A DNA stretch of 41,406 nt. Origin: a virus. Of this stretch, positions 335 to 37,900 are shown piece by piece (the first letter of the stretch is position 1; every line of letters begins with the position of its first letter). The notes under the pieces were generated by a model. That model searched no databases and had not been told where the DNA came from. It worked only from the letters and a program-made list of their open reading frames with translations. Location of the stretch: IMG/VR virus record IMGVR_UViG_3300035228_001452, positions 1 to 41,406 of that record. One strand, given 5' to 3'. A program made the position numbers and the translations under genes.

Positions 335-342
335 TATTTATC
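335..342 (-). promoter_or_regulatory. Late promoter octamer GATAAATA
   Basis: GATAAATA on the minus strand, 28 nt before the ATG of the 65-aa gene. It differs from the T4 late consensus TATAAATA only at the first base. Its first base is the final G of the preceding gene's TAG stop codon. Confidence 0.55.
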
Positions 343-1163
343 TATCCTTGAAATTGTATACTTATTGATCCAGCATTTGAATTGTCTGCTGTTGTTCCTG
401 ATTGAGAATTACCACCATTATATGATCCTCCTCCAGCACCCCAGAAACTCCATTGAGTTGCACCACCGCCAGAGTATCCGCCGCCGCCGCCAGCGCCATT
501 AGTGCCTCCACCGCCGCCGCCGCCGCCAAAACCACCTTGAGCTTGACCAGGACCACCACTCGCTCCGTTGGTGAAAGATCTGCCATACCAAGATCCGCTA
601 CCGTTTCCGGTTAAACCTCCGCCGCCGCCAGCATTACCATATCCATTTCCACCACCTCCACTAGTGCCTCCAGGTCTGCTGCTGTAACCTAAAGATCCAT
701 TAGTGATGTCGTGTCTTCCATGATAACCATTACCGCCATAAGGATATCCAGAAGCAGATCCAGCGCCCCCACCTGCTGCAATAATTAAAGGGGAATTGCT
801 AGATGTGCATACATATGTTCCACCGCCTCCTCCACAGTCATAACAGTTATTAGTTCCTCTTTGTCCAATAACCATTTTAAGGGTATCACCTTGGGATAAA
901 GAAAATGTTCCTGTTAACCTAGCACCTTTGCCGCCAGCAGGTCCATAACAATTACTTCTTCCACCTTGCCCACCTTTTACGGTAATCTGATAATTTCCGT
1001 CAGCAGGAACTGCCCAAGAAATAACACCAGATGATACATTTAAAAAATTTGTATCGTTTTTCCATGCAGAGTTGCCAGAAATACCGGCTCTAATTTGCGA
1101 CAAAGAAGGACCTTGATATCCTTCTATTGGAGTAGTAAAAGTTGCTGATGAGAATTCATATAG
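342..1163 (-). repeat. Paralogous direct repeat, copy 1 (with 3229-4050)
   Basis: This 822-nt segment encodes the C-terminal 273 residues plus stop of glycine-rich protein 1. It aligns without gaps to 3229-4050 in the same orientation, with about 22 amino-acid differences by my count. It includes a roughly 60-nt identical stretch (near 410-470 and 3299-3358). The sequence upstream of the repeat, encoding the N-terminal 62-70 residues, is unrelated apart from the shared fibre motif. Confidence 0.85.
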
Positions 1164-1373
1164 TTGCGGACCAGGAGAAGAAATCCACCCGACTCCATAT
1201 TCTGAGTCTACATCACTATCTGGGTCTCCCGTCCAAACTTCAAATTGACCTGAAGTTGTATTATAAATCACGGCACCAATAATTTTTGGCAAAGCATCTC
1301 TAGCTGCCTCACTATATTGTGGAATATTGAGATCAGTATTGATAAAAAGATGATTTACGTTTAAGGTAGACAT
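342..1373 (-). CDS. Glycine-rich adhesin-like protein 1, ALK/LTK-type glycine-rich domain
   Basis: A 343-aa virion protein, probably a fibre tip or receptor-binding adhesin (inference). Residues 1-70 are a short attachment region ending in the common phage-fibre motif GAVIYNTTSGQFEVW. Residues 71-135 form a beta-rich entry region with an IxWxVPADGxYxITVxG segment. Residues 136-343 are dominated by glycine runs, including GGFGGGGGGGG (280-290) and GAGGGGGYSGGG (293-304). Cysteines occur at 142, 177, 180 and 189. The order of VPxxGxYxI, GQRG, GGGGGTYV, PLIIAAGGG, GGFGGGGGG and GGGGGYSGG follows, from memory, the extracellular glycine-rich domain of ALK/LTK. Runs like these can pack as polyglycine II helices, as in the S16 gp38 adhesin. 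Its last 273 residues are nearly identical to glycine-rich protein 3. It is the only copy not followed by a chaperone-like gene. Confidence 0.8.
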   Translation of the reverse strand: MSTLNVNHLFINTDLNIPQYSEAARDALPKIIGAVIYNTTSGQFEVWTGDPDSDVDSEYGVGWISSPGPQLYEFSSATFTTPIEGYQGPSLSQIRAGISGNSAWKNDTNFLNVSSGVISWAVPADGNYQITVKGGQGGRSNCYGPAGGKGARLTGTFSLSQGDTLKMVIGQRGTNNCYDCGGGGGTYVCTSSNSPLIIAAGGGAGSASGYPYGGNGYHGRHDITNGSLGYSSRPGGTSGGGGNGYGNAGGGGGLTGNGSGSWYGRSFTNGASGGPGQAQGGFGGGGGGGGTNGAGGGGGYSGGGATQWSFWGAGGGSYNGGNSQSGTTADNSNAGSISIQFQG

Positions 1374-1396
1374 TTATATTATAGACCTATTACTAT

Positions 1397-1404
1397 TATT
1401 TATT
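1397..1404 (-). promoter_or_regulatory. Late promoter octamer AATAAATA
   Basis: AATAAATA on the minus strand, 23 nt before the ATG of glycine-rich protein 1. It differs from the T4 late consensus at the first base only. It overlaps the TAA stop codon of the preceding 87-aa gene. Confidence 0.5.
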
Positions 1405-1663
1405 CCCACGGAGGTGGCACTTGATTAATCCAGTTTTGAATCCATTTCTCTGCAAGAAACACAGGAGGACCTTCTACAATATTTCCATCAATTGACGGTT
1501 TTACTGCTTCGTGGAGAATATGAATATCATACTTTGATAAAATTTCAGCAGAAAGTTCTTGATACTCTGCATCACATGGATCCACATCAGGATGATCTTC
1601 AATAAATTGTTCTACTGAATATTCAATAGGATTGTGATTATTTAATTTAATTAATCTTGTCAT
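1400..1663 (-). CDS. Putative adhesin/fibre assembly chaperone (87 aa)
   Basis: The N-terminus TRLIKLNNHNPIEYSVEQF matches the start of the 163-aa protein (KYIKLVNNTPIHYTIEQF). Both continue with an acidic stretch, then LxKYDIHxL/LKQYDVYPL and a C-terminal WIQxW motif. The shape (short beta start, YxVxPxxx element, W-rich end) recalls small chaperones encoded just after phage tail fibres and adhesins; that role is inference. The open frame extends 12 codons further upstream. I chose the ATG at 1663 because it aligns with the paralogue and has AAGGTG 7 nt upstream. That Shine-Dalgarno lies in the last codons of glycine-rich gene 2, and the gap between the genes is 4 nt, suggesting translational coupling. 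Unlike the paralogue it lacks the cysteine-rich tail and ends QVPPPWE. Confidence 0.75.
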   Translation of the reverse strand: MTRLIKLNNHNPIEYSVEQFIEDHPDVDPCDAEYQELSAEILSKYDIHILHEAVKPSIDGNIVEGPPVFLAEKWIQNWINQVPPPWE

Positions 1664-1667
1664 TTCA

Positions 1668-2705
1668 TCACACCTTAGTAATTTTAATTTTACCGGCATT
1701 TTGTCTTTGCCCTGCCGTCTTCACTGCTCCAGTAGCATCAGAAGTTACATAAGAACCTCCACCAGCAGCATAAAAACTCCATCTAGACATAGCTCCACCA
1801 GAGTATCCGCCACCACCGCCAGCGCCATTAGTGCCTCCACCGCCGCCGCCGCCGCCAAAACCACCAGGGGCAGGACCAGGACCACCTTGAGATCCGGCAG
1901 ATAGACCTTGACCTCCCCAACTTCCATTACCGTTTCCGGTTGTTCCTCCACCACCTCCAGAAGGACCATTATTACCGCCGCCGCCAGATCCATTAGATCC
2001 ACCAGGACCATAAGCAGTGCTACCTCCAGTTTCACTAGTGGTTCCATTTTGTGGTCCTGGTCCATTCATTCCAGAAGCAGATCCACCACCACCTCCTCCT
2101 GCAATAACTAAAGGTGTGTTGTCTTCTTCACAGACATAAGTACCACCGCCGCCACCGCAATCATATCCATTATTTGTGCCTCTTTGTCCGACAACAATTT
2201 TTAATTTAGTTCCACCTTTGATATTCACAGTACCAGTAGCATATACTCCTGTGCCACCAGCAGGTCCATAATAATTACTTCTACCACCTTGGGCTCCCCA
2301 GCATTCAATTTTGTAGTTTCCGGTTCCTGGTGGGGTCCATGACCAAACTCCACTGTTAACACTTAAATATTCTGAATTATTTTTCCATTCATCATTACCA
2401 GAAATTCTGCTTACAACAGTCGCTAACGATGGACCGGTCCTGCTCGTCTCATTAGCATCATATTCAAAACCTTGAAAATTATATCGTTGTGCTCCTCCTC
2501 CACCCGTTCTCTCTCCGAGAGCAAGTTTCCATTCACTACCATTCCAAAATTCTAAAACTTTGTCGTCATCATTAAAAATGAGCATGCCAATCTCTGGAGG
2601 ATTGGCTGCAAAATGTGCATCTCTTGCGGCCACAGATAATCTTGCAAAAACTAAATTTTGCGAGACGTTAGCTGTGTCAACCGTAAGTTTTGAAGTTTCT
2701 GCCAT
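1668..2705 (-). CDS. Glycine-rich adhesin-like protein 2, ALK/LTK-type glycine-rich domain
   Basis: A 345-aa paralogue of the other two glycine-rich proteins and the most diverged. The N-terminal 60 residues hold the fibre motif GMLIFNDDDKVLEFWNGSEW (40-59). Residues 74-140 are the beta-rich entry region, and 137-345 the glycine-rich domain with GQRGTNN, GGGGGTYVC, PLVIAGGGGGG, GGFGGGGGGGG and GAGGGGGYSGG. Two cysteines present in both paralogues are replaced together (Tyr145, Gly180), while the pair Cys183/Cys192 is kept. An extra Cys135 lies in IECWG. The middle segment (210-260) differs completely from the paralogues in loop length and sequence, as expected for a receptor-contacting region. 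The protein probably forms a distal tail or fibre tip (inference). It is followed after 4 nt by the 87-aa chaperone-like gene. Confidence 0.8.
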   Translation of the reverse strand: MAETSKLTVDTANVSQNLVFARLSVAARDAHFAANPPEIGMLIFNDDDKVLEFWNGSEWKLALGERTGGGGAQRYNFQGFEYDANETSRTGPSLATVVSRISGNDEWKNNSEYLSVNSGVWSWTPPGTGNYKIECWGAQGGRSNYYGPAGGTGVYATGTVNIKGGTKLKIVVGQRGTNNGYDCGGGGGTYVCEEDNTPLVIAGGGGGGSASGMNGPGPQNGTTSETGGSTAYGPGGSNGSGGGGNNGPSGGGGGTTGNGNGSWGGQGLSAGSQGGPGPAPGGFGGGGGGGGTNGAGGGGGYSGGAMSRWSFYAAGGGSYVTSDATGAVKTAGQRQNAGKIKITKV

Positions 2706-2726
2706 TTTTAAAAGTACTCTATATCT

Positions 2727-2734
2727 TATTTAGA
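2727..2734 (-). promoter_or_regulatory. Late-promoter-like octamer TCTAAATA
   Basis: TCTAAATA on the minus strand, 21 nt before the ATG of glycine-rich protein 2. It differs from TATAAATA only at the second base. It contains the TAA stop codon of the 163-aa gene. The same octamer precedes glycine-rich protein 3. Confidence 0.45.
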
Positions 2735-3221
2735 CTAATTTTCCCCACTTGTCTAGGGGGCATGCGGATACTTTTAGTTGCGCTTTGAGAACCATAAAAC
2801 ATCCACACTCTTTACATTGTCTAGTAGATTTTCTATATCTATCACAGTCTTGACAAATATTCATTCTTTCTAGTCTTTGTTCATTACTAGCAAATGCATC
2901 AGCACCAAGATTAGGAAATTTAAATCCCTTCTTTTCCTCAACTTCCATATCATCAATTGATTTATGAATCTCTTTTACTTCCCATTGCTGAATCCACTCA
3001 CCATTCCAATTTTGTTGAGGATCTATCTCTACTACTTCTGTATCTGCCGTTATTTCTGGAGACGCGGTAGTAATCAAAGGATATACATCATACTGCTTTA
3101 AAACATTTTTATCGGGAATTCCTTTTACTTTTGTATAAATTTTAACTTCCGGATATTCTTCAATAAATTGTTCTATTGTATAATGGATAGGAGTGTTGTT
3201 TACTAATTTAATATATTTCAT
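2730..3221 (-). CDS. Putative adhesin assembly chaperone fused to a zinc-ribbon-like tail (163 aa)
   Basis: Residues 1-82 are paralogous to the 87-aa protein (IKLVNNTPIHYTIEQFIEEY, LKQYDVYPL, GEWIQQW). Residues 83-118 are a charged linker. Residues 119-163 form a cysteine-rich tail with Cys at 123, 126, 136, 139, 141 and 154 in a CxxC-x9-CxxCGC-x12-CP arrangement, ending CPLDKW. This is a zinc-ribbon-like pattern that I have seen at the C-terminus of other marine phage proteins; metal binding is inferred. The gene follows glycine-rich gene 3 with a 7-nt gap. AAGGAT, in the last codons of that gene, lies 10 nt before the ATG and is a better Shine-Dalgarno than the AAAGGA abutting it. It has no promoter candidate of its own, so it should be co-translated with the adhesin. 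Confidence 0.75.
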   Translation of the reverse strand: MKYIKLVNNTPIHYTIEQFIEEYPEVKIYTKVKGIPDKNVLKQYDVYPLITTASPEITADTEVVEIDPQQNWNGEWIQQWEVKEIHKSIDDMEVEEKKGFKFPNLGADAFASNEQRLERMNICQDCDRYRKSTRQCKECGCFMVLKAQLKVSACPLDKWGKLV

Positions 3222-3228
3222 TTCCTTT

Positions 3229-4050
3229 CTATCCTTGAAATTGTATACTTATTGATCCAGCATTTGAATTTTCTGCTGTTGTTCCTGATTGACTAGAACC
3301 ACCATTATATGATCCTCCTCCAGCACCCCAGAAACTCCATTGAGTTGCACCACCGCCGGAATACCCGCCACCACCACCAGCGCCATTAGTGCCTCCACCG
3401 CCACCACCGCCGCCAAAACCACCTTGAGCAGGACCAGGACCACCTTGAGATCCGTTGGTGAAAGCTCTACCATACCAGGATCCACTACCGTTTCCGGTTA
3501 AACCTCCACCACCTCCAGCATTACCATATCCATTTCCACCAGATCCATTAGTGCCTCCAGGTCTGCTGCTGTAACCTAAAGATCCATTGGTGATATCATG
3601 TCTCCCATGATAACCATTGCCACCATAAGGATATCCCGAAGCAGATCCAGCACCGCCACCTGCTGCAATAATTAAAGGAGAATTACTAGATGTGCATACA
3701 TAAGTACCTCCTCCACCACCACAGTCATAACAGTTATTGGTTCCTCTTTGTCCAATAGCCATTTTAAGGGTATCACCTGAAGTCAATGCAAATGTTCCTG
3801 ATAACCTAGCACCTTTGCCGCCAGCAGGTCCATAACAATTACTTCTGCCACCTTGACCACCTCTTACGGTAATAACATAATTTCCGTCAGCAGGAACTGC
3901 CCATGTAATTATACCAGATGATACACTCAAGAAACTTGTATCGTTTTTCCATGCATCATTACCGGAAATTCCGGCTCTAATTTGCGACAAAGAAGGACCT
4001 TGATATCCTTCTATTGGAGTAGTAAAAGTTGCTGTTGAGAAATCATACAA
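3229..4050 (-). repeat. Paralogous direct repeat, copy 2 (with 342-1163)
   Basis: Encodes the C-terminal 273 residues plus stop of glycine-rich protein 3 and aligns gap-free to 342-1163. Many differences are synonymous changes in glycine codons, so the duplication is not brand new. Recombination between the copies would delete the two chaperone-like genes and glycine-rich protein 2. Confidence 0.85.
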
Positions 4051-4236
4051 AGATGCTCCCTCTCCAATAACTTCCCATTGCCCTTCTACAGAATTGTAGA
4101 TCTGCATTGTCTCTTCGGTGCTATTGTATACAATATCACCACCGTTCGTAGAACGACTATTGATTTGAGACTGAGTTAATGACGGAATTTTAATACCAAT
4201 TCCAATATTGGCCCTATCAGTATTAACAGTTGACAT
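3229..4236 (-). CDS. Glycine-rich adhesin-like protein 3, ALK/LTK-type glycine-rich domain
   Basis: A 335-aa paralogue. Residues 1-62 are an attachment region with the fibre motif GGDIVYNSTEETMQIYN and differ from those of the other copies. Residues 63-335 align without gaps to glycine-rich protein 1 with about 22 differences, mostly conservative, and share cysteines at 134, 169, 172 and 181. The domain has the VPADGNYVITV entry strand, GQRGTNN, GGGGGTYVC, PLIIAAGGG, GGFGGGGGGGG and GGGGGYSGGG signatures of ALK/LTK-type glycine-rich regions (from memory of that family). Its likely role is a fibre or baseplate tip adhesin (inference). It is first in the adhesin array, 24 nt downstream of the 3002-aa fibre gene, with its own late-promoter candidate, and is followed by the 163-aa gene. 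Confidence 0.8.
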   Translation of the reverse strand: MSTVNTDRANIGIGIKIPSLTQSQINSRSTNGGDIVYNSTEETMQIYNSVEGQWEVIGEGASLYDFSTATFTTPIEGYQGPSLSQIRAGISGNDAWKNDTSFLSVSSGIITWAVPADGNYVITVRGGQGGRSNCYGPAGGKGARLSGTFALTSGDTLKMAIGQRGTNNCYDCGGGGGTYVCTSSNSPLIIAAGGGAGSASGYPYGGNGYHGRHDITNGSLGYSSRPGGTNGSGGNGYGNAGGGGGLTGNGSGSWYGRAFTNGSQGGPGPAQGGFGGGGGGGGTNGAGGGGGYSGGGATQWSFWGAGGGSYNGGSSQSGTTAENSNAGSISIQFQG

Positions 4237-13816: not shown

Positions 13817-16800
13817 TTATTTCTTAGTGATGTGTGAAACAACAGTGATATTAACGTTTTGAGTAGATCCAACTGAATCACCTACTAGAATATTTAGTCT
13901 AATGGTATTATTTGCGGTGTACTCAAAAGTTGGTGTGATTAATTTAGTGCCAGTAATCACATTACCGTATTCAGTATAGTATGCATCAGATCCATTATCG
14001 ATAACACCAAATTCTATAAATTCCTTATCATTAGTTGTTGGGTTGAATGCTGTGACAACTACTTTTGCTCCCTCTTCAATTGTTGTTGTGTAGATATCAG
14101 TTCCACCATTATCGACAGAACCTTTAATTAAAACAAATTCGTCCGATAGAATACGAGTGTCTGAAAGTTCAAATTCTTTCAATTGCCCATCAAAAATTTT
14201 AACTCCATTAAATCCGCCACCAAATGTAGTATTAAAATACACATCACCTTGATCGTCTAGACGTAAAATAGGATCTACTGTAATACCAGCAGAAAGACCA
14301 ATGTCTAGGTACTGTTTTGAACTATGTAAGAAAGTAGTTGTCGCTGAAGTATTATCAATTGTGGTTGCTCCCTGATCAATAGTAAGTAAAGAAGTAGTAA
14401 TTTCTAACTCATCTGAAGTAACTGATCTAATAGTATCAACCGCATAAAAATCTAAAGCACCAGTACTTAATTCGACACTCTTAACTCCATCGTTATAAAA
14501 GAATAAAGTATTTTCATTAGCACCAGGAGAAGTTTCTGGAATAATATATGTGTTTTGGTCAACGTCTTTTACGCCACCCAAAGAACCCCAGTTTGCTCCA
14601 TCATATCCCTCAAATTGACTTGAAGTTGTGCTGAATCTTACAGATCCTTGAATAGGAACTCCTCTATCTGCATCAGCACCTACTGGAAGAGCAATAGTAG
14701 TTGATGCATCACAAATAATTTTCTTTCCACTATTTGGTGCTAATATAAGGTCATCTACTGTTGTAGAAATTGTAGCATTTTGAAACTTTAGATTGTTGTT
14801 GACTCTGACTGGACTTGATCCAAAAGGATCAAATAGCATCTCTTGATAGTCTTCAAATGTAATTGGAGCAACAGCAATTTGTGACCAGGTAAGTTCAGCA
14901 CTTCCATTAACGACAGCACCTGTAGTGTGAACGGGTTCTGAACCTGTAGTTCCTGTAGTACCACCAACTGTTACTTCATATAGATTATTTTTATATTTGA
15001 CAAACTGTCCTAGGACTACAGGAATGTTTGCTCTCCATTCAGTAAATGTAGGAGCACTTACACTTAATGATCTTGCTTTTTTTACATTCGTAAACTCCAT
15101 ATAAGATGGAGTGAATTTAAATGTGTTGACATTATCATTAATAAACCATAATGTATTATCATTAGAACCCGTAGTTAATTCTGCTAAGATATAAGTGTTT
15201 CCATCTAAGTCTCTAACACCACCAAGAGAAGACCAGGAAAGGCTATTAGCATTATAACCCTCGTATTGTTCTGTTTGATTGTTATACCTAACAGAACCAT
15301 TTACTGCAACTGCTGCTCCCGGTCTCTGTAGTGTACTTCCAGAGGGAAGAACTAATGCACTAGTAGCATCTACCACTGCAAGTTTACCTACAGAAGGTTG
15401 AATGATAATATTTTGTGGTGTAATAGTAGAAATAGTATTTTCTTCAATTTTTAAAATATTATCAACAAGAAGATAATCATTAACTTTAATATATCCACTA
15501 GTCTCTAAATTTCCTGCAGATTTAGAGATAGTTAATTTATTGTCAACATTTAAATCTGAAGTCAGGTTAAATGTATTTGCCTTTAATTGAAAATTTGAAC
15601 CTTCTCTGTTTAAAAGAGGAGTGGCGACTTGGGTTGTAAAAGATCCTGATTCTGCTGTGATATCAGTAGCAATTAAGGTTGCAATTGTGGCATTAGTTGA
15701 GATAACATCGGATAATGTAATTGATCCATCAACAATATCCATTGCAATAGAATTTTGACTATTGATATCAGAAACAACAAACAGAGCATTAGATCCAAAA
15801 ACTTTTGGATTATTTGCATCTATAGTAATAGCAACTTCTTCATTATCATATCCACCTTCATTTTCGTGTCCTGTTCCTGATGCACAATAATAGTATAAAG
15901 TAGGAGTAGAATCTCTAACAATAATATTCAAAGCGTCTGATGCTCTGGATACACCATCAATATATTCTACACCTGCAAAAGTTAAATCTGCTGATGTTGC
16001 ATCAATTAAAGATGCATTACTTAGAGTAACAACATTTGTTCCCACATCTACAGAAACAACAGTAGTACCATTTGGTATTCCACTTCCAGAATTTTGAGTG
16101 ACTGCCATATTTGGCAGAATTAATGCTGCTTCTGATGGGGAAACAGTAATCTCGGCACTTCCGGAAGTAAGATTTGTTATTACATTTTCTGCAAGACTTG
16201 GTGCATATGGTCCATCTTTAAATTCACTTAAAGCAAATTGATGTCCATCATTTGAAGAATCTGAAAGATCGAAAGTATATTGACTATCTACATACAGTGT
16301 AATATTTGGTTCAATTGATCCATCAATAAAATATCTATATGTGGTTGAATTATTTTGAGTCGTATAAGCAACTCCTCCAGTTTCAGTCTCGATATCCTCC
16401 CCAGCAGAAACTGTGTTAGATTGGGTTAAAATATATGATGTAAGACCACCAGATTCTTTTACAAATTTTACTTCAAATAAAATAGTTCCATCAGCTGTAA
16501 TGCTTTCTCCAACTGTAAAAGTTCCAGATGCAGGAGGATTTACAAACTCAATACGAGAGAGTGCCTCGTTTGTCACCACATAAGATGTAGGTTGCGAAAG
16601 GAGTGTTGCATCAACAGTAATTTCATCCGTTATTTCATATCCATTGCCTTCACTATTGACCTCGATAGTATCGATAACTCCAACACCTTCAACTTCATAT
16701 TCAAAATCTTGTGTCTGAGTAGTTCCATATGGAGTAGTAAAATTAAGATTTACTGCTCCTGGACTTTCTGCATCTTGAGATAACTCAATAGTAAAATTAC

Positions 16801-18649
16801 CACCCGATTCTGTAATAGAATTTACCGATGTATTTGGAAGCAATGTTCCAGATCCACTGGCAACTGTAATTATCATTCCAGCAAATATGCCGGTAGCAGA
16901 AGACAAAACAATTTGATTTCCTAACCCAGGACCACTGAATGTAAAGGTAGCGGTTGCATTATCTCCAGTTGGGTTTGCTGAAATTACAACAGACGTACCA
17001 TTTGGAATACTAACGACAGTTGCATCAGCTGGAATTTCTGCCACTCCAATAATAGACATGCCCGCAACAATACCGCTACTATCATCAACTGTTAATGTTG
17101 TGCTAGCAGCTAAACATGAACCAGATACATCAGAAACTGTTCCGCTTAATACAGCAGATACTCCATTTACAGACCCTGCTAATTCTAATAGATCACCTAC
17201 TTGATATCCAGATCCTCGTTCTTGCCAAAACAAATCAGTAATGCTTCCTGGATTTGATGTAACCTCATAAGAAAATCCAGAACCTCCTCCTCCCCCAATA
17301 TCTGCATCATTGAAAGTTAGGAGATCTCCTGCTTCATATCCAGATCCTTGAGTATCAATAGTGACAGATGCTACAGTTCCTGTATACACAAACGAAGAAC
17401 CTAACGTATATTCAAATCCACTACCGCCTGACAGTCCCAGAGTAGGAGCTGTTAAAATATTATTAACAGTATAATTATTTCCACTGGTGCCAATAGTGAT
17501 AGCACTAACAACACCAGTAGCATTTACTGTAATGTCTGCTTGTATACCACTACCAAAACTTCCAGCAGATCCTGATACAACAGTGATGACTGCTCCCATT
17601 CCATTATGAGTGGCACAATCATATGCGATATCACCATCAGGTGCATCTGGTTTGATAATCAAGTCAATAAAAGATCCACTAATTCCAGCAGCACCATTTT
17701 GTGCTGTAACAAATAGAAGACCATCTACAGGAGAATCATCTGAATTTTCAAAAATAAGTGGATGAGTCGATAATGAACTATCAGAAATATCAAATCTGTA
17801 AGTATTTCCTTTAGTTAATGTTAAAGTTTGCTGAGCTACTCCATTAATTGCAAAAACTTCAGCAGGAGGTGGAGTTCCTGGATTCGTTATTGCTGTTAAT
17901 GTGTATGTTGTAACTGGATTATTAAAAAGTGAAACTGCTAAGTTTTCTCCTTCAGTATATCCAGTACCAGGATCTGTGATTGATCCAGAATAATCTACTT
18001 CTCCACTGATGGTAATATTTGCAGAAGCTCCAGATCCACTGCCAGTAGAACTAACAAATGTTGGATTATAATTTCCTGGAGCATATGCACTACCCGCATT
18101 GATAATGCTACCTTCTAATTCTGGTACTGTAAAGTTAACAAATGCACCTGTTCCATTTCCATTAACAATGAGTATATTGTCATATGATCCAGGATCATAT
18201 CCTTCACCATCATTATTGATAACACCTTGATGGGAGAGAATATCGATATTTAATGATAGTCCACTACCAGTTCCACCAGATACAAAAACATCGTTGTAAA
18301 TTCCTGCATCATAATTTTGTCCGGCATTAGATATAATAATTTCCGAAACAGTATTTTTTTGTAAGTTAATATCTTGAAATGCTGTGAGATCAGCAGATGA
18401 AAGATTTAAAATCTTTTTATCTGCTGCAACAAAACCCATAACCCCAACATTGGCTCTGTACACACCAAGATAGGGATCATTTTCAAATGCTAATGACGGA
18501 GATTGTTTTGAACCATCTCCAATTTTTAAATTGCCTGTAGCAAGATCACTACCACCAGCAGTAATATTAAAAATTTGTGTTGCAATATTATTAATTTTCT
18601 GCCTTTGAAGTTCAAAGGTGTCAGTTCTAGCGACATTAATTGCTGGCAT
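13817..18649 (-). CDS. Modular fibre-like virion protein with two cupredoxin-like domains (1610 aa)
   Basis: The N-terminus (MPAINVARTDTFELQRQKIN, then GGSDLATGNLKIGDGS) is a recurring attachment start of cyanophage fibre proteins. Residues about 105-235 carry four tandem GxxYxxGxY...GSGA repeats. Residues about 245-358 look like a cupredoxin: a His in THPLIF (about 297), then YDCATHNGMG (about 343-352), giving a Cys-x2-His-x2-Met spacing as in amicyanin. More GSGYxxGD repeats follow. A second, interrupted cupredoxin-like unit (about 768-945) has GHQFALS and YYYCASGTGH but no Met. The C-terminal third contains two tandem fibre units, each with a GSVRYN/GSVRFS...EGYxxxxW..LGGV element followed by NTYI..E and FxNDxV. 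The start overlaps the 68-aa gene by 14 nt. It is probably a tail fibre or baseplate-associated protein; copper binding is untested. Confidence 0.8.
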   Translation of the reverse strand: MPAINVARTDTFELQRQKINNIATQIFNITAGGSDLATGNLKIGDGSKQSPSLAFENDPYLGVYRANVGVMGFVAADKKILNLSSADLTAFQDINLQKNTVSEIIISNAGQNYDAGIYNDVFVSGGTGSGLSLNIDILSHQGVINNDGEGYDPGSYDNILIVNGNGTGAFVNFTVPELEGSIINAGSAYAPGNYNPTFVSSTGSGSGASANITISGEVDYSGSITDPGTGYTEGENLAVSLFNNPVTTYTLTAITNPGTPPPAEVFAINGVAQQTLTLTKGNTYRFDISDSSLSTHPLIFENSDDSPVDGLLFVTAQNGAAGISGSFIDLIIKPDAPDGDIAYDCATHNGMGAVITVVSGSAGSFGSGIQADITVNATGVVSAITIGTSGNNYTVNNILTAPTLGLSGGSGFEYTLGSSFVYTGTVASVTIDTQGSGYEAGDLLTFNDADIGGGGGSGFSYEVTSNPGSITDLFWQERGSGYQVGDLLELAGSVNGVSAVLSGTVSDVSGSCLAASTTLTVDDSSGIVAGMSIIGVAEIPADATVVSIPNGTSVVISANPTGDNATATFTFSGPGLGNQIVLSSATGIFAGMIITVASGSGTLLPNTSVNSITESGGNFTIELSQDAESPGAVNLNFTTPYGTTQTQDFEYEVEGVGVIDTIEVNSEGNGYEITDEITVDATLLSQPTSYVVTNEALSRIEFVNPPASGTFTVGESITADGTILFEVKFVKESGGLTSYILTQSNTVSAGEDIETETGGVAYTTQNNSTTYRYFIDGSIEPNITLYVDSQYTFDLSDSSNDGHQFALSEFKDGPYAPSLAENVITNLTSGSAEITVSPSEAALILPNMAVTQNSGSGIPNGTTVVSVDVGTNVVTLSNASLIDATSADLTFAGVEYIDGVSRASDALNIIVRDSTPTLYYYCASGTGHENEGGYDNEEVAITIDANNPKVFGSNALFVVSDINSQNSIAMDIVDGSITLSDVISTNATIATLIATDITAESGSFTTQVATPLLNREGSNFQLKANTFNLTSDLNVDNKLTISKSAGNLETSGYIKVNDYLLVDNILKIEENTISTITPQNIIIQPSVGKLAVVDATSALVLPSGSTLQRPGAAVAVNGSVRYNNQTEQYEGYNANSLSWSSLGGVRDLDGNTYILAELTTGSNDNTLWFINDNVNTFKFTPSYMEFTNVKKARSLSVSAPTFTEWRANIPVVLGQFVKYKNNLYEVTVGGTTGTTGSEPVHTTGAVVNGSAELTWSQIAVAPITFEDYQEMLFDPFGSSPVRVNNNLKFQNATISTTVDDLILAPNSGKKIICDASTTIALPVGADADRGVPIQGSVRFSTTSSQFEGYDGANWGSLGGVKDVDQNTYIIPETSPGANENTLFFYNDGVKSVELSTGALDFYAVDTIRSVTSDELEITTSLLTIDQGATTIDNTSATTTFLHSSKQYLDIGLSAGITVDPILRLDDQGDVYFNTTFGGGFNGVKIFDGQLKEFELSDTRILSDEFVLIKGSVDNGGTDIYTTTIEEGAKVVVTAFNPTTNDKEFIEFGVIDNGSDAYYTEYGNVITGTKLITPTFEYTANNTIRLNILVGDSVGSTQNVNITVVSHITKK

Positions 18650-34900: not shown

Positions 34901-37900
34901 GACCTGTAGTTGTATAAGTAATATCTCCAGAACCATCCCATAATGGTGTGGATAAAATATCATAAACAAATCTATTAGATGTTACATAATTTACAGTTTT
35001 ATTTCCTTGTAATGGATCCTGTATAATATTTAATTTTGCTTCTTCTGCATCTACAATATTATTTTTATCAAAATAATAAAAACTTGAAAAATTAATTTTC
35101 TTTTTGATATTGTAATTATTTTGTGCTAATCTAGAACCAAATCCAAATTTGACATCAACGAAAGATCCAACATTTCCTGGAACTGCAGATGAGACAATTT
35201 GCTCAAGAGTTAATAAATTATAATTTCTACTTGGACTTAAGTTAAATTCGACACCAGTCATTGAAGAGTGTGATGTATCAAAAATATACTTGTAGTATTC
35301 CTGAATATCTAAATCTGGATTAGGTGTAAAGTTGATATTATCAGAAGAAATCTCAAACTTAGATGCCGCAGTCTCTACTGATTGAACTCGTACTAATCTA
35401 TTTGGACTACTGGCATCAAAAAATGACGTGCTATTTACAACTTTTGTAGCATCAGCAAAAGTAATATCATAATCAAATACAATGACTGCCTTTTGTGTAT
35501 CTGGATCGTATGATCTAATATACCCAGTTCCATTGGTATTTGTTAAAGGAAAATCTGGTGTGAAATTATATCTTGGTTTATATAACTGTACTAACCCACC
35601 ATCAAAATGATTTACTGCCTCTGTTCCTTCTTGTGCCCTAATGATGTTAAGAACATCGCCAGTAATAGAAGAAATTTCAATAATTTCATTTCCAACTTTA
35701 ATTAGATCCCCATCAGAGAACCCATCAATGCTAGCAAGTCTCATCTGAGATGATTGAGATCCAACACCGGAATGATCAATGTAGATAATTAGACGCGCAG
35801 TAGACAATGATGCTCCAGATCTTCCTAACTGATCATCATCAACAGAAAGGAAATCTCCTCGTCTATACTTTTGTCCACCATCTTCTAATTGGATATCATT
35901 AATGACTCCTTCTGCGGATACAGTAATAGCAGCGGTAGCATTTTCTCCAGACCCTCCAGTTAAAGGAATGTTAGTATATACGCCTTCAGTATAATCAGCA
36001 CCACCATTTAAAATAGTAAATCTTCCTACACCACTGTAATTGATTGTTGATTCGCTGGAAAAAGATCGAAATTGTACATTCTGATATAATCTTTTTCTTA
36101 CATAGTAAGTTTTTGTTTTAGTTGTATCATCCGGATTGATATCAATTTTTACAATATCACCAACACCAAGACCATGGTTTGTATCAGTTTCTATCAATGC
36201 AACACTTTGATTAACCTCAAATGGTTCTAAGTTATCACTAAGTGAAGTAATAACCGTTATCTTAGTTCCCGAAGTATTGAATAGATTATCAGACTGTAAG
36301 AAATAATCTTCATCAAGACCCCAAGTACCAGTAAGAACTTTAATCTGTACAGTATTTTGTCTGCTAGTTCCCTCTAAAACTTCACCTGTAGCAATTGGAA
36401 TATTAATTCCATCAGTGAGACTTAAAATAGCACCTTTAGTATATGAACTGTCCTGATCTAATACTAAGATAAATGTTTTAGTCGCAGCAGAAAAAGTTCC
36501 GGTATTATCAAATGTTCCTGAAACATTTTTAAGAACAATAACACTATCATTTCTTACAGTGCCTACAATTTGACCAGAAGCACTACTTGATGGTTGTGTT
36601 AAAATATCATCTTGAAAAAGATATGCATTCTGAATAGTAGTCAGTTTTACTACTTTGTTTTCTTTACTTTGTAGATAACTTACAGTCTTTCCTTGTACTT
36701 CTGATACGATTGCTTCTGCATCAGATCCTTCGGTATTTAAATTATCAAAGAATAGTTGCGAATTAACTGAGAAGTTATCTGATGAATCTTCTACATAAAC
36801 ACTTTCGACGCTACCGGATTTAATATCCGAAATTTTTGCTAAGAGACCAGCGCCATTTCCTGGCATACCCGCAGTGTAAAATCTTTTAGCAGATTTTGGA
36901 ATATCGCTGTGATTGATTGGTGTGTTGTAGTTACTATCTACTGGAAGAGAATAGAAATTTTCTCCCAAAATATATGGAAACTGTGGTACTTGATTACTAT
37001 CAATAGTAATAAAATATGCATAAGTCCCATCAGGAAAATCTGGAGTAATACAAAATCTTCCGTTATTCTTATCTAATGAACCACTTCTATGACTATAAGT
37101 ATAGTCATCTACAAAAGAACCTAAAGGATATTGTGTTAGTGAAGGTCCTGCAGTTCTAGATCCTGTCAGAGAATAACTTGAAGTCATTCTTACAATAGAA
37201 GAGCTAGAATTTAGAGGGTCTTGATGTCCAAATGGTCCATAGATCGGATTTCCATCATAAGCGAATCCTAAAATAGGAGAGTGAGTTTTGACAGTTGGTT
37301 CTGCTCCAGCACTATCAATATTATCACCTAAAGAAACACGTAATTTTTTGGGGTTTGCAATTTGTCCATATCCATAATTTTGAATAATATCGAAATTTTC
37401 AAATACATATCCAAACTCTGTATCTAACTCAGTTTGAAGAGATACGAATCTATTCTTGTTCCATTCTTTGAGGTATGGAGTTGATGTAGCACCCTCACCA
37501 ACAGTAAGGATGTCTACCACTACATTTTCTTGTACGTAGAAACTACCTTCACTTTTTTGTTCAAATCCTGTAATTTTTCCTTCGGTGTCAACAATAGCAT
37601 TATACTCTGCAAATCTTCCCCTTCCGGAAAGATCTCTAATTTGTACAATTGGAGCACTGGAGTAAAATTCACCTGGATTATCAATAACCAAACTTGTAAT
37701 TTTACCACCAGTTACAACAGCACGAACTTTTGCTTTGCGACCAGAAACAATTTCTACATTTGGTGTCCTTGTAAAAATAGCACCTGTATTTACTTCAATT
37801 CTATCAACTACTTCACCATTAAGGAATGCAGTTGCTTTATTTGGAACTCCATCTATAAGAACAAAGGGAGGTCTCTTATAATTTCTTCCCCTCGAACTAA

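Follow-up and report, generated by a model that had tools for sequence, protein, structure and literature searches.

Blue-copper proteins such as plastocyanin, amicyanin, pseudoazurin and rusticyanin are free secreted or lumenal electron carriers. With the phage domain described here (domain 1) they have in common a Greek-key β-sandwich, predicted in the case of the phage domain, and the placement of the ligands, with a His ahead of one strand and a Cys-x2-His-x2-Met motif between the last two strands. They differ from it in that domain 1 sits in a giant virion protein, belongs to a domain type that is widespread in marine phages, and is accompanied by a second copy with an inserted subdomain and an axial Glu. 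Metal sites are also known from phage tails, where the HxH iron sites in the tail-fibre tips of T4 gp37 and, as a proposal, of Alteromonas phage R22Y are proposed to serve host attachment ("Trojan/Ferrojan Horse", PMC11705849). Those sites consist of His-x-His pairs in the fibre tip, whereas the His, Cys, His and Met of domain 1 lie inside a single domain. None of the eight His residues of the protein forms an HxH motif and, judged by its sequence, the domain is not of the HxH iron-binding tail-fibre type. The closest relatives of the whole protein are the PHROG 6005/32294 proteins of the Kyanoviridae (S-PM2 p089, Syn1_099). They are direct orthologues in the same gene order, annotated as virion structural or baseplate proteins only and with no metal site described, and several of them are without domain 1 altogether. 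In open-access papers we found no account of cupredoxin domains in the particles of phages.

We analysed a stretch of 41,406 nucleotides, referred to as the window, which is a fragment of a T4-like marine cyanophage. Its gp6 is 87.5% identical to that of Synechococcus phage ACG-2014i, and its gene order (gp6, a giant gp7-like protein, gp8, a giant structural protein, a 1610-aa protein, a small structural protein and a giant tail-fibre-like protein) agrees with those of ACG-2014i and S-RIM44. The 1610-aa protein matches the PHROG 6005 profile "virion structural protein" with 1630 bits and also PHROG 32294, "baseplate wedge subunit". Its orthologues include S-PM2 p089, itself annotated as a virion structural protein, Syn1_099 and a protein of ACG-2014i, and the gene order around it is gp6-gp7-gp8, then the 1610-aa gene, then neck genes; its place in the baseplate cluster is shared with S-RIM44, Syn1, S-PM2 and ACG-2014i. 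Both the profile match and the conserved position in the baseplate cluster thus assign it to PHROG 6005, a virion structural protein of T4-like cyanophages, and the phage fibre protein of an earlier, sequence-only reading is better described as a baseplate-region virion structural protein. In our judgement, residues 243-364 are probably a cupredoxin module with a functional type 1 site, most likely for copper, joined in the same protein by a second module with a variant site, and with a role in host contact. The features are listed in Table 1. Elsewhere in the window, positions 342-4236 of the minus strand encode three paralogues (335-345 aa, each assigned to PHROG 22713), and in between them lie two small proteins, at 1400-1699 and 2730-3221, with a common motif like IKLxNNxPIxYxxEQFIExxP; the arrangement looks like repeated pairs of adhesin and helper.

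Table 1 Features of the 1610-aa protein and its two cupredoxin-like domains in the window
Feature	Position	Strand	Evidence
Virion structural protein, 1610 aa, carrying both domains	13817..18649	-	PHROG 6005, 1630 bits; PHROG 32294
Domain 1 (cupredoxin-fold module), residues 243-364, all type 1 ligands present	17558..17923	-	AlphaFold2, Foldseek, 29-domain alignment
His296, first His ligand, adjoins strand at domain residues 56-60	17762..17764	-	28/29 orthologous domains
Cys345, thiolate ligand, end of strand at domain residues 97-103	17615..17617	-	29/29 orthologous domains; DSSP of model
His348, second His ligand, Cys-His-Met loop	17606..17608	-	28/29 orthologous domains
Met351, axial ligand, C-x2-H-x2-M, amicyanin-length loop	17597..17599	-	29/29 orthologous domains
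Domain 2, residues 755-946, second diverged copy, inserted β subdomain at ~819-892	15812..16387	-	HMM, AlphaFold2
His803, first His ligand of domain 2	16241..16243	-	Domain 2 alignment
Cys922, thiolate ligand of domain 2	15884..15886	-	Domain 2 alignment
His928, second His of domain 2 (C-x5-H)	15866..15868	-	Domain 2 alignment
Glu931, axial position of domain 2 (H-x2-E)	15857..15859	-	Domain 2 alignment; Met in other relatives

The sequence-only reading had placed a cupredoxin-like domain at positions 17577-17915 of the minus strand, which do correspond to residues 245-358 of the 1610-aa protein, and structure prediction bears this out. The AlphaFold2 model of domain 1, made from a 29-sequence alignment, has a pLDDT of 92.9, a pTM of 0.87 and nine strands, and according to DSSP His296 adjoins one strand, Cys345 ends another and Met351 lies just ahead of the last. 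Among solved structures, type 1 copper proteins come closest: a Foldseek search of the PDB returns rusticyanin as the top match (E 4e-4, prob 1.00), followed, among others, by cupredoxin domains of multicopper oxidases and by plastocyanin (TM 0.54/0.60), with TM-scores that are moderate at 0.4-0.6 and with the non-copper peptidase SO1698 also among the matches. By model and structural matches alike, domain 1 is predicted to have the cupredoxin β-sandwich fold. The best viral matches among predicted structures are cyanophage tail-fibre-like and virion proteins. Further matches in BFVD (A0A481Z7Q7, A0A481YWX9, A0A481YXP1 and others) are giant-virus "Beta-sandwich" proteins with a TM-score of ~0.65, from relatives of Pithovirus and Marseillevirus.

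At the level of sequence families, domain 1 is not a member of the type 1 copper cupredoxins, and similarity to them is not detectable. The profile search of cupredoxin families to which the sequence-only reading had looked came out negative: no cupredoxin model of Pfam or NCBIfam matches domain 1 above its cut-off, PF00127 and the NCBIfam plastocyanin model being at best below it, and no plastocyanin/azurin family model matches the window. A sequence search of the PDB with domain 1 gave nothing above cut-off, and its weak best matches carry little weight because plastocyanins are mixed there with antibody and immunoglobulin chains. In a profile-profile comparison the wide superfamily of the domain aligns with six cupredoxins with the four ligands in register (prob 72%), which we take as a lead only. 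The resemblance of domain 1 to type 1 copper cupredoxins is thus one of modelled fold and ligand positions, and the copper site is a predicted one.

The ligand positions themselves are strongly conserved. H296, C345, H348 and M351 stand at the cupredoxin positions for His, Cys, His and axial Met, the motif is C-x2-H-x2-M, and His296 lies 49 residues upstream of Cys345. In 29 orthologous domains from IMG/VR that are 39-96% identical to domain 1 of the window, Cys103 and Met109 (alignment positions) are invariant and each His is kept in 28; the lone exception, L015, has lost both His residues. The ligand set named by the sequence-only reading is therefore present and is kept, Cys, His and Met alike, in homologues. 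Clustering at 80% identity gives 47 clusters, over which the four ligand positions are 96-98% conserved. A C..H..M pattern arose in 1 of 20,000 shuffles of the 1610-aa protein, but conservation is the stronger argument that domain 1 is real. Some variation is seen around the axial residue, which is Gln in L343 and L348 (C-x2-H-x2-Q); domain 1 of L270 (Sf-CH1b) has a longer C-x2-H-x4-M loop, as in plastocyanin.

Two explanations that dispense with a metal can be weighed against this pattern. The domain could be a cupredoxin-like β-sandwich spacer, a scaffold in which the conserved Cys, His and Met are structural. The cupredoxin fold does persist without copper in known proteins, and the sequence families do not recognise the domain as a copper protein; a spacer, however, would not keep exactly four ligand positions while others diverge, and we regard this explanation as improbable for domain 1. 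Alternatively, the conserved Cys could form an intermolecular disulfide or act as a thiol/redox switch in the fibre, tuned by His and Met. The whole protein has only four Cys residues alongside its eight His, and Cys345 has no partner inside its own domain, but the invariance of both His and of Met at the cupredoxin positions is left unexplained, and so is the joint loss of the first His with Cys and His that is seen in domain 2 (see below). We therefore consider a disulfide or thiol switch very unlikely.

The domain belongs to a wide superfamily in marine phages. A tblastn search finds it in 49 phage records, from Synechococcus, Prochlorococcus, Pelagibacter and Methylophilales phages, and in IMG/VR at least 495 stretches with relatives were found by one seven-residue pattern. 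A scan with the pattern YYC..H.GMG returned at least 120 stretches; the first His, not itself part of the pattern, occurs in at least 116 of the 117 copies of the domain taken from these stretches. The superfamily alignment has only six invariant columns, His, Tyr, Cys, His, Met and Gly, and four of the six are the four ligands, with the qualification that Cys, His and Met were partly selected for while the first His was not. Strict narrow-pattern scans of bacterial and archaeal genomes gave no relative and hence no host source of the domain. Within the window, residues 1385-1486 of the 3524-aa gp7-like protein (35088-35393, minus strand) are a faint, ligand-free relative, with an iE of 9e-17 for an iterated profile and 0.06 for the superfamily profile. 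The gp7 of phage P-HM1 has a copy of the domain with His, Cys-x2-His and H-x3-M.

The 1610-aa protein contains a second, diverged copy of the domain. Domain 2 matches the HMM with an iE of 3e-13, plus 0.0012 for its C-terminal half, and its AlphaFold2 model has a pLDDT of 94.7. Foldseek matches are weak (E ~0.02-0.04), with cupredoxins among them, which we attribute to the insert. The site motif is C-x5-H-x2-E. The idea that this site is broken for want of a Met was rejected, as Glu occupies the axial position in most intact relatives: the axial residue in 44 intact second sites is Glu in 28 and Met in 16. On the alignment, domain 2 carries a predicted variant metal site. In 49 orthologues of domain 2, His, Cys, His and Glu or Met are kept in 31. 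The other 18 have lost both Cys and the second His, and 10 of these also lack the first His and 17 the Glu/Met; the LYYY-type motif ahead of the Cys is kept throughout the 49. A tree built without the ligand columns requires at least five such losses. Loss of the ligands as a set from a fold that is kept would be expected of a metal site whose function has lapsed and, since the fold signature stays when the ligands go, suggests that the fold does not need the metal. The 18 ligand-free copies would suit a scaffold in so far as the fold is there without its ligands, but a spacer would not be expected to lose them as a set.

A free-standing copy of the domain, ORF080 of phage P-SS2 (63255-63593, 112 aa; 3013-3351 of L255), has lost the first His, the Cys and the second His and has kept the Met. 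The protein was found in purified virions by mass spectrometry, with 9 peptides (PMC2784084). ORF080 locates the fold in the virus particle and provides a natural example of a copy that is scaffold only. The sequence-only reading had also allowed for a retained scaffold; that holds for ORF080 and for many copies of domain 2, and does not hold for domain 1 of the window, where the ligands are kept.

The nature of the metal is a separate question. Sites with two His and a Cys also take Zn when expressed in the cytosol, and the site might bind zinc or another soft metal and so act as a structural staple, giving stability to the fibre or the baseplate. The axial Glu of domain 2 would suit Zn or a non-blue site, and metal-bearing phage tail fibres are known, as in the iron of T4 gp37 (cited in PMC11705849). 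In domain 1, however, an axial Met and a C-x2-H-x2-M loop are found, as is usual in type 1 copper sites. Moreover, folding seems not to need a metal, because the fold signature persists in copies of domain 2 that lack the ligands and ORF080 of P-SS2 occurs in virions without the His and Cys ligands. Nor would a purely local staple lead one to expect that where one site is lost the other is retained, as described below. We consider a zinc staple unlikely, and favour a type 1 copper site that would act in host adsorption, both the copper and the role being inferred.

The second domain, the presence or absence of domain 1 and the relation between the two sites go beyond the sequence-only reading. 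Domain 1 is cleanly absent from the orthologues of ACG-2014i, S-PM2, S-RSM4, Sf-CH1a, S-WAM2, S-B43 and Sf-CH3, and also from one ACG-2014j isolate and one S-RIM44 isolate. The flanks of the missing domain can be aligned on either side; the exceptions are S-B43 and S-WAM2, where the annotated protein has a later start. An intact second site is found in 8 of 9 isolates without domain 1, compared with 2 of 8 lineages that have it (p 0.015, phylogeny being ignored); the S-PM2 orthologue has an intact His/Cys/His/Glu site, while the S-WAM2 isolate apparently has no intact site in its orthologue. We then considered 66 non-redundant full-length orthologues, drawn from the nearest 80 of 539 relatives, gathered by the C-terminal part of the protein and so not chosen on either domain, and including the isolates just mentioned. 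Both sites are present in 26 of these, domain 1 only in 21, domain 2 only in 18 and neither in 1, compared with 6.3 expected for neither (Fisher p 0.0016, a value that again ignores phylogeny). Phylogenetically independent pairs, 2 of them opposite and 0 the same, are too few for a test. Nearly every relative of the 1610-aa protein keeps at least one such site, and on these counts the two sites would appear to complement each other across orthologues. Complementarity between two domains ~500 residues apart is not expected of a spacer. Taken together, the fold and the site look real, and look selected at the level of the whole protein.

For the favoured type 1 copper site this suggests that the metal would serve the whole protein in host contact, rather than hold one domain together; the latter is less probable, given that some orthologues do without domain 1 and that copies lacking the ligands retain the fold signature. 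The 1610-aa protein would fold and assemble in the host cytosol as an apo or Cu(I) protein, copper would be acquired from sea water or when the host lyses, and at least one loaded site per protein would be required in the particle. Against copper stands the fact that the type 1 copper proteins known so far receive their metal outside the cytosol, and phage baseplates are built inside it. Since this is a baseplate-region protein, attachment is the most economical role, and the metal could act either by assisting the binding to a surface receptor or through a redox-dependent change of the baseplate during adsorption. In chemostats in which S-PM2 coevolved with Synechococcus, the orthologue S-PM2d086 acquired a non-synonymous mutation in 1 of 3, and a short tail-fibre gene likewise gained a non-synonymous mutation in that same chemostat (PMC9910659). 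The finding agrees with a location close to the adsorption apparatus and is no proof of it.

A bolder extension, to which we give little credence, is that a redox-active copper centre in the baseplate or fibres of marine phages, with at least one site per protein, helps to decide when or where attachment takes place; it might, for instance, sense light-driven chemistry or the redox state at the surface of the host. The one pointer to such a switch, linked to redox or light, is the light-dependent adsorption reported for several cyanomyoviruses (PMC2984593); S-PM2, with its intact second site, is a phage of this group.

If the copper assignment is true, a conserved copper-type site in virions would take blue-copper chemistry to a new setting and add a new type of metal-dependent component to phages. 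Because marine viral contigs contain the superfamily in abundance, and Synechococcus, Prochlorococcus, Pelagibacter and Methylophilales all have phages with it, it would bear on the attachment of common ocean viruses and on the carriage of trace metals by virus particles, which, as the ligand conservation and the retention of at least one site in nearly every relative suggest, may carry a working metal centre.
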